34,881 bases of DNA from contig JACZTB010000015.1 of NCBI GenBank assembly GCA_022573895.1, positions 1-34,881 on the forward strand, given 5' to 3'. The stretch is from Nitrososphaerota archaeon. GTDB lineage: Archaea; Thermoproteota; Nitrososphaeria; Nitrososphaerales; Nitrosopumilaceae. Each line of letters opens with the position of its first letter. Position 1 is the first letter of the stretch. The notes beneath the pieces are model-generated. The model did not search any database. It was not told the DNA's origin and saw only the letters and a list, made by a program, of their open reading frames with translations. Below are positions 33,513-34,881 of the stretch, in pieces. The position numbers and the translations under genes were made by a program.

Positions 33513-33847
33513 ATGCTTGATGAAAATGATCTGTTAAACAGAATAATTCAGGTGAAAAACTTGAAAGAGAATTGTTTCAAGTACCTTGAAGAGTCATCAT
33601 CTAAATTATTAACTCATAAAATTATTTTCTCCATAGCAAAACTATCTTCTGAAAAAATGGACCCTGTCAAACTTGCAGCAATTTCTGAAGACATTTTTGG
33701 AAACAGTGATAAATCAAAGCAAGATCTGATTCGTTTAACCATGGAAAAATCACTTTCAAAGTGTGGAATTGTGGAAAAGAATTATGGCAAAATCAAAGAG
33801 TTTGTCCTCAGTGTGGACGTGATAGAGAACAAGATGATCCAGAATAA
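33513..33847 (+). pseudogene. Zinc-ribbon gene with a -1 frameshift
   Basis: ATG at 33513 follows a TATA-like TTCATAAATA by about 25 bases. The first 84 residues (MLDENDLLNRI to LTMEKSLSKC) are read in one frame. At 33762-33764 (TGT) a one-base step back opens a different frame that encodes WNCGKELWQNQRVCPQCGRD, then REQDDPE and a TAA at 33845-33847. Together they give a complete double-knuckle zinc ribbon C-x2-C ... C-x2-C, which the unshifted frame does not. The unshifted frame continues to 33872 without a motif. A lost T (TGTTGG to TGTGG) would explain it. It could be real loss, a sequencing error or programmed frameshifting. Confidence 0.55.
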
Positions 33848-33868
33848 TCATGTCTCTTTTCTTGGTGA

Positions 33869-34660
33869 ATGAAAATGAAAGAAGAAATTATTCTTGATTC
33901 AAATTTTAAAGTGGCTATGGATAAACTTGATGTCCTCAAAGACAAGCTTGCCCTATCTGATGTACTCAAGGAAAAAGCTGTACATATGTACAAAAAGATC
34001 ATTGAGAAAAATACCCTGAAGGGTAGATCAATTGATGCTATGGTCGCAGCAGTAATTTATGTTGCATGCAGGGATTCAGAGACATCTCACAACCTAAATG
34101 ATATCACAGAGGCCACAGGTCTCAGAAAAAAATCAATTCCAAATAATGATCAACTAGTTCTGTTTTACAGTAATCTAAACTCAATATCACAAATGATATT
34201 TCTGACACTAGTTACTTCGGGATTACGAATAGGTGAAGTTCTATCTTTGGATATAGATGACGTTGATTTTGAGATAAATATGATTGATGCATCCAAAATA
34301 CACAAATCACATACAAAATCTTCTTGGATTAGCTTTATAACTCATCAAGTATCAGAGTTAATTCAAATCTATGTTGAATCATTACATGGTACAAAGTTAT
34401 TTCCAGTATCATACAAGATAGTTCAAGAAAACTTTCAAAAAGCATCAAAAGAGTCAGGAATCAAGATAAAACCACATCTACTAAGGACAATATTCACTGA
34501 GAAATGCACTCAAGCTGGAATCGAAGAAAAGTACATTGATGCTTTTTGTGGTAGAATGTCTCAAAATATCATCAGAAAGCACTACACAGACTATTCTCCT
34601 GAAGCTATGAGGAGACATTATGACAAGGTAGAACCGTTTTTGAGATTGTCCTTAGAATAG
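33869..34660 (+). CDS. TFIIB cyclin repeat fused to a tyrosine-recombinase catalytic domain
   Basis: The 263-residue protein has two clear parts. Residues about 14-90 are the first cyclin repeat of an archaeal TFB: LSDVLKEKAVHMYKKIIEKN, then KGRSIDAMVAAVIYVACRDS, which matches the TFIIB signature. Residues about 91-263 are the catalytic domain of an archaeal integrase: Arg120 in TSGLRIGEV, a likely Lys at 146-150, HxxR at 203-206 (PHLLR) and Tyr239 in IIRKHYTDYSPE. The zinc ribbon and second cyclin repeat of TFB and the N-terminal core-binding domain of the integrase are all missing. The break lies inside the last cyclin helix. No stop or frameshift interrupts it. Confidence 0.85.
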   Translation: MKMKEEIILDSNFKVAMDKLDVLKDKLALSDVLKEKAVHMYKKIIEKNTLKGRSIDAMVAAVIYVACRDSETSHNLNDITEATGLRKKSIPNNDQLVLFYSNLNSISQMIFLTLVTSGLRIGEVLSLDIDDVDFEINMIDASKIHKSHTKSSWISFITHQVSELIQIYVESLHGTKLFPVSYKIVQENFQKASKESGIKIKPHLLRTIFTEKCTQAGIEEKYIDAFCGRMSQNIIRKHYTDYSPEAMRRHYDKVEPFLRLSLE

Positions 34661-34819
34661 ATGATCTTTCAGGGATAAAGCCACACCATAATCTGTAGTA
34701 TGATTACGCTATTTTTGGTATGAACTAAGCTTGTATACTTTACATAATCCTTAGGTAGATTACGTAAATTTTGTGAATCGTACTATTTTCAGTATTCCTA
34801 AAATTTTGACGATCTTTTT

Positions 34820-34881
34820 CTAGTCTTGCTTCAAACCTTTGCGTACAATATCATTCAAAGTCCTAGAGAAATTAACTGAGC
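34820..34881 (-). CDS. Ribbon-helix-helix protein, C-terminus only
   Basis: From the right window edge the minus strand reads SVNFSRTLNDIVRKGLKQD and stops at TAG 34820-34822. The pattern SFSRxLN-x-V-x-x-GLK is the same as in the 8996-9151 protein, so this is probably a related small DNA-binding protein. Its N-terminus is beyond the window. It is convergent with the TFB-integrase fusion, with 159 AT-rich bases between and no visible gene. Confidence 0.55.
   Translation of the reverse strand, partial: SVNFSRTLNDIVRKGLKQD

Follow-up and report, generated by a model that had tools for sequence, protein, structure and literature searches.

A TFB-integrase open reading frame in a Nitrosopumilaceae genome: a probable in-frame join of gene fragments beside integron-like cassette arrays

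The fusion ORF near the right-hand end of the window joins a TFB cyclin repeat to the catalytic domain of a tyrosine recombinase. We propose, with a probability of about 75%, that it is an accidental in-frame join of gene fragments and that its integrase half is a remnant of IntB, the putative recombinase of a cassette system in the family Nitrosopumilaceae. IntB is the name given here to the integrase family of the window's catalytic half. The window, the whole stretch of DNA analysed, is the complete contig C22 (34881 bp) of a 1.8-Mb MAG that comprises 92 contigs and is 97.7% complete.

The fusion ORF and its fragments

The original prediction described one uninterrupted frame with a TFB signature and all core catalytic residues of a tyrosine recombinase, and translation, Pfam and PDB comparisons agree with it. 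The 263-aa ORF has no internal stop. Pfam places a TFIIB match at residues 14-91 (E 8e-16, model positions 6-83 of 92), a Phage_integrase match at residues 104-243 (E 1e-12), and an archaeal phage integrase match (PF16795) at residues 105-246 (E 3e-8, above its cut-off). The PDB matches include the TFIIB core chains 1d3u/1ais (~9e-14) and the XerC-like 4a8e (2e-5). The catalytic set R, K, HxxR, Y is retained as R (GLRIGE), K (TKSSW), HLLR, and Y (HYTDYS). The usual H/W position is occupied by R (CGR), as it is in all 13 aligned relatives, and in three IntB members K takes the place of the H of HxxR.

Both parts of the protein are incomplete. An archaeal TFB has a zinc ribbon and two cyclin repeats; compared with a 316-aa TFB, the zinc ribbon, the B-linker and the second repeat are all missing here, and NF001658 scores 70 bits against a cut-off of 384. 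Even the single repeat is cut, as it lacks the final 9 of the 92 model positions at the junction. The homology of the integrase to its closest relative begins at about residue 87-91 of the fusion. The first ~130 residues of IntB, including the N-terminal core-binding domain, are absent, and the tfb fragment stands in their place.

The DNA upstream of the junction is itself composite (Table 1). In the mosaic ORF, the first ~95 aa match ~204-aa proteins, and the remainder is DNA of the zinc-ribbon gene read out of frame. The same genome has an intact paralogue of the ~204-aa gene (75% identity, C86:55323-55598), and the gene is intact in relatives too. The zinc-ribbon gene is whole in G116, G000:C88 and other genomes; in G116 the tfb sequence stops at a point other than that in the window. 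The best intact TFB relatives of the tfb fragment within the family are 53% identical. The flanks of the 195-bp block shared with G116 are unrelated on both sides, and the two copies belong to two species.

Table 1. Features at the end of contig C22 and at the head of contig C63.
Feature	Position	Strand	Basis or remark
Mosaic ORF, 124 aa	33498..33872	+	directly 5' of the fusion ORF; ATGA overlap with the fusion start
5' fragment of ~204-aa gene, function unknown	33513..33779	+	sequence match
3' part of conserved 33-aa zinc-ribbon gene (MKPQSCRNCGKELWQNQRVCPQCGRDREQDDPE)	33767..33848	+	5' end replaced here
195-bp block	33767..33961	+	99.5% identical to G116:C10 1072-1266
tfb fragment, cyclin repeat 1 only	33849..34138	+	Pfam and sequence comparison
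Fusion ORF	33869..34660	+	263 aa, TFB cyclin repeat and IntB catalytic domain in one frame
IntB catalytic domain, C-terminal ~175 aa	34128..34660	+	82% DNA identity to G130:C126 from 34128
Dyad site 1, CATAATC-TGTAGTAT-GATTACG	34687..34708	+	27 bp past the IntB stop
Dyad site 2, CATAATC-CTTAGGTA-GATTACG, type A2	34743..34764	+	pattern match
Conserved segment after type A2 sites next to IntB in other genomes	34743..34822	+	comparison
Overlap with contig C63 start	34756..34881	+	98%, 127 columns
C63 sites	319 GTATATGA; 515 TGTAGTTA; 925 TTACTATG (degenerate)

Only short imperfect homology was observed at each fragment junction. A search for dyad or att sequences gave none that was convincing at 33767, 33849 or 34128, the last of these lying next to 34130-34145, where a shared core sequence had been expected. 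We take the TAATC at 33849 for a coincidence of the zinc-ribbon stop codon. Within the MAG (97.7% complete, 92 contigs), we found no second copy of the integrase N-terminal half, and a 25-aa remnant was all that was found of a lone tfb 3' half. At least 17 full-length TFB genes are present in the 1.8-Mb genome G000. TFB genes occur near 4 of the ~36 loci fetched for their sites, approximately as many as the number of TFB genes per genome predicts, and we do not claim an enrichment of TFB genes near the arrays.

The IntB family and the origin of the join

A search of 250 genomes of the Nitrosopumilaceae family with the integrase part as query gave 15 IntB loci in nine other genomes, all MAGs, which come from several submitting projects. 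Fourteen of these loci encode full-length proteins of 302-322 aa with a helical, core-binding-type N-terminal domain, and one is frameshifted. One intact copy lies on NORP47 contig NVWC01000029.1 (66-974), and Y281 and Y284 are the candidate catalytic tyrosines of IntB. The AlphaFold model of IntB (mean pLDDT 88, pTM 0.59) matches the folds of XerA (the best, 5hxy), integron integrase, lambda Int and Cre. VchIntIA (2a3v) does not match it better than XerA does. The best NCBIfam model is NF040815 (5e-22), whose cut-off of 220 lies above the score of 78.7. The integron integrase model TIGR02249 gives 40.5 bits against a cut-off of 265 for the IntB of L095, and 25 and 30 bits for two other IntB proteins. 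No dyad arrays were found with distant IntB relatives in other families, and the viral contigs searched contained neither IntB nor the TTACTATG site.

None of the IntB relatives at the 15 loci carries a TFB part. A whole-protein search of genome contigs gave no second TFB-integrase fusion, and a search of viral contigs did not find the exact tfb-int junction. The original prediction is right that such a protein belongs to no known class; the combination was found only in this ORF. We read the fusion as accidental because the relatives have a native N-terminus without TFB, the fragments end abruptly, and no reciprocal half was found. Comparison of the sequences suggests that the ORF is most likely a join of broken gene pieces. 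The 5' half of the integrase gene would have been lost and replaced by fragments of the ~204-aa gene, the zinc-ribbon gene and tfb, most likely through illegitimate recombination where short stretches of imperfect homology occurred. A series of truncated fragments, with one junction in frame by chance, is the simplest account. As its core-binding domain is missing, the fusion protein is probably not a working recombinase. Its intact catalytic half, with a dN/dS of ~0.34-0.41 versus G130, would nevertheless fit a gene still in use as well.

An assembly chimera, in which a misjoin at the fragile end of C22 has combined pieces from several strains of a MAG, is an unlikely but serious alternative. 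Just 221 bp lie between the fusion ORF and the contig end, a block with 99.5% identity to G116, another species, has different flanks there, and many contigs end at or close to array sites. However, sequence overlap and synteny with G174 both lead from the end of C22 into C63. In this single-contig genome, the proteasome gene of C22 (29096-30128) directly adjoins genes found on C63 from 3438. On account of the 127-bp overlap and this synteny, the tail of C22 and the head of C63 form one island (the truncated integrase gene, TGTAGTAT, CTTAGGTA, GTATATGA, TGTAGTTA, and a degenerate TTACTATG), and therefore the integrase half and dyad sites 1 and 2 are correctly placed. G174 has no such island at that place, and its own array lies a few genes away. 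Furthermore, the adjacency of the zinc-ribbon gene and the tfb fragment is seen again in a second assembly, and it is improbable that three misjoins would arise within 400 bp in the absence of long shared words.

The original prediction favored an SSV-type (suicidal) integration, in which an element entered a tfb gene, split its integrase, and left a tfb'-intC hybrid at one boundary. The part of this claim that holds is a recombination hybrid with its break inside the cyclin fold; the split mechanism is not supported, and we consider it highly improbable. The tfb fragment does meet the C-terminal part of the integrase in frame, and PF16795, reported as a Pfam domain of suicidal integrases (PMC8371274), is above its cut-off in the fusion; the one full-length IntB examined scores below that cut-off. 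Moreover, the relatives keep intact genes of 302-322 aa within assembled chromosomes, so that integration normally leaves the IntB gene unsplit. The probable IntB sites are located 3' of the integrase gene, outside it. The tfb gene is also cut at its 5' side, where it is joined to another gene fragment, and the expected intN-'tfb partner was not found in the genome.

The zinc ribbon of known TFBs and their second cyclin repeat serve polymerase recruitment and BRE reading. A functional fusion, in which the cyclin repeat would substitute for the core-binding domain and steer the recombinase to TBP- or promoter-bound DNA as had been suggested, can claim the uninterrupted frame, the retained catalytic residues and an ATGA overlap that could couple translation to the upstream ORF, but it deserves next to no credence given a single case with no fused relative, an upstream ORF that is itself a fragment mosaic, half a TFB core with neither zinc ribbon nor second repeat and hence no BRE reading, and a junction inside the repeat.

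Dyad sites, spacer types and cassettes

The dyad pattern first found, CRTAATC-N8-GATTAYG, follows the IntB stop in the window and occurs near most of the relatives. A logo of 126 sites gives the consensus TTCRTAATC-N8-GATTAYGWA, with sharp arms, a variable spacer and flanks at background. The sites are 22-26 bp long, with two inverted 7-bp arms around an 8-bp spacer. In the window's own genome, a slightly looser pattern gives 30 sites versus 1 for the reversed pattern; the 12 array-bearing genomes contain 135 sites versus 0 for the reversed pattern, and the majority of the 250 genomes of the family lack such sites. At least three sites are present in 6 of the 10 genomes with IntB and in 6 of the 240 without it (p 6e-7). 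In eight loci, the distance from the IntB stop to the first site is 17-342 bp. No matching site was found at four IntB loci (two in G209, G149:C10 and G098:C29), and no IntB above threshold was found in the site-bearing genomes G174, G115, G117, G118, G131 and G010. Rfam gave nothing in the window end, and only tRNAs in six array loci. From position and co-occurrence, we infer that IntB acts on the dyad sites. The site arms differ with the IntB copy in L091, L097 (G008) and L103 (G150), where GGTAATC or CTTAATC replaces CGTAATC, sometimes with a 7-bp spacer, which suggests that enzyme and site co-vary.

The 8-bp spacers recur as distinct types, including CTATACAA (24 times), TTACTATG (20 times) and TGTAGTTA (17 times), with both strands counted. 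Along the arrays they follow the order (C/G)TTAGGTA, CTAGTAGA, GTATATGA, TGTAGTTA, TTACTATG, CTATACAA. Among adjacent pairs of type A, 43 of 50 follow this order, 4 are equal and 3 run against it, a descriptive count, since these data also served to define the order. In 62 of 72 adjacent typed pairs the two sites point the same way, and ordered arrays are present in the single-contig genome G174 as well. The flanks of same-type sites show ~33% identity between arrays, which is background, except for ~80 bp downstream of the A2 / (C/G)TTAGGTA site. This conserved segment, present in the window after site 2, is a possible attI-like platform. Because the flanks of same-type sites are unrelated, shared ancestry of the neighboring DNA does not account for the spacer order. 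Recombination at matched addresses could explain it.

Breaks in homology coincide with the sites. The ends of homologous blocks lie within 15 bp of a site in 17 of 113 cases, versus 1.93 expected (p ~1e-11), although the blocks are not all independent. In G098 (NORP47), contigs C11 and C32 share 99.7% identity for the 1924 bp before a TGTAGTTA site, after which their cassettes differ. A 439-bp cassette common to G131 and G115 starts at a site, and in G131 the following site marks its other end. A 541-bp body occurs at two places in G130. A body of ~180 bp is flanked by GTATATGA and TGTAGTTA in C63, in the window's own genome, and by the same types reversed in G131; the breaks lie within the spacers. 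Mobile cassettes bounded by probable recombination sites, as in an integron array, are present in these genomes. The recurrence of typed, ordered spacers speaks for recombination between matching spacers, but some bodies lie between different types. Since one cassette body occurs between different spacer types, strict spacer matching is not the whole rule.

The dyads could also be regulator-binding operators or MITE-like repeats, as palindromes near gene starts and ends could serve in this way. We regard this as very unlikely: the homology breaks coincide with the sites, the spacer types are ordered along the arrays, the site flanks are unrelated, unlike those of MITEs, and the sites come after a tyrosine recombinase gene and resemble the core sites of such enzymes.

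The IntB genes stand at the array head, and the cassettes carry one to few genes. These encode methyltransferases, P-II, HxlR, a PAS histidine kinase, a cupredoxin, NYN, SIR2, an OLD/GajA-like ATPase and a serpin, and several appear defence-like. In L142 (G010:C73, 1920-9433), an OLD/GajA-like ATPase, an HNH protein, a SIR2 protein and an NYN nuclease each lie between dyad sites, and this run looks like a defence-gene array. The serpin of L156 (G047:C13, 7519-9048) contains a Kunitz/BPTI domain (serpin E 6e-121) and lies between TTACTATG and CTATACAA sites. In L093 (G009:C53, 9010-11899), adjacent HATPase (HATPase_c_3) and caspase-domain genes lie just past CTATCTAA, the last site found in G009. 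The elements with IntB encode a further integrase as well, and one of the loci has a primase-helicase. A second integrase-like protein of 506-580 aa is encoded beside two IntB arrays, L085 (C63, 1876-3396) and L087 (3015-4757), and in G130 the ORF of the second integrase-like protein overlaps a tRNA gene.

We propose that an IntB tetramer would pair two sites and exchange strands across the 8-bp spacer, and that sites with matching spacers would recombine best. Exchange at matched addresses of two arrays, or with an excised circle, would swap cassettes while keeping the address order. Matching spacers thus presumably favor exchange, by one of these putative routes. The arrays appear to form an integron-like, spacer-addressed cassette system in which IntB would be the dedicated recombinase. 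The chances are evenly balanced that it is a distinct archaeal gene-shuffling system, with ordered spacer-coded sites and its own recombinase, in which cassettes are swapped slot by slot across elements and species with the order left unscrambled.

Comparison with known systems

Ammonia-oxidizing archaea rank with the most abundant microbes of the sea, and little is known of how they acquire and exchange accessory genes. If the proposed system is real, such exchange could take place through a cassette platform that has coded sites and a recombinase of its own, and the recurring spacer types would make natural candidate orthogonal recombination sites. Reading the ORF as a fragment mosaic beside such arrays explains away the TFB-integrase fusion.

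A cassette system in marine ammonia-oxidizing archaea has apparently not been described previously. Our search of open-access papers turned up no account of such arrays in thaumarchaea. The IntB arrays lie in elements with another integrase, one of them with a primase-helicase, and can be compared with the integrated elements of thaumarchaea (PMC6563490). The passages of that survey considered here describe no cassette arrays and note that thaumarchaeal counterparts of elements like integrons may await discovery (PMC6563490).

IntB resembles the recombinase of archaeal XerA/dif in its best NCBIfam model and its best fold match. However, it scores below the cut-off of that model, its sites form multi-copy arrays instead of a single chromosomal dif, and they are absent from most related genomes. 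With integrons, including archaeal integrons (PMC9668308), the system shares a tyrosine recombinase beside a platform-like site, small diverse cassettes, and the occurrence of arrays without a recombinase. It differs from them in that IntB falls outside the IntI family by TIGR02249, the gene points toward the array, the spacers are typed and ordered, and the sites are 22-26-bp dyads, apparently unlike the long folded attC sites.

The closest known system in its working is that of the pdif (dif) modules of Acinetobacter, which are likewise bounded by short two-arm sites with variable spacers (PMC13141974). Recombination between pdif sites of identical or nearly identical spacers has been seen, with exchange via cointegrates (PMC13141974). 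The pdif modules use the host XerC/XerD and reside on plasmids; the two arms of their sites differ, the spacer measures 6 bp, and the orientation alternates. The IntB sites have neither distinct XerC/XerD arms nor alternating orientation. Instead, the IntB arrays combine symmetric arms and an 8-bp spacer with one prevailing direction, a conserved spacer order, and a dedicated recombinase gene at the head.
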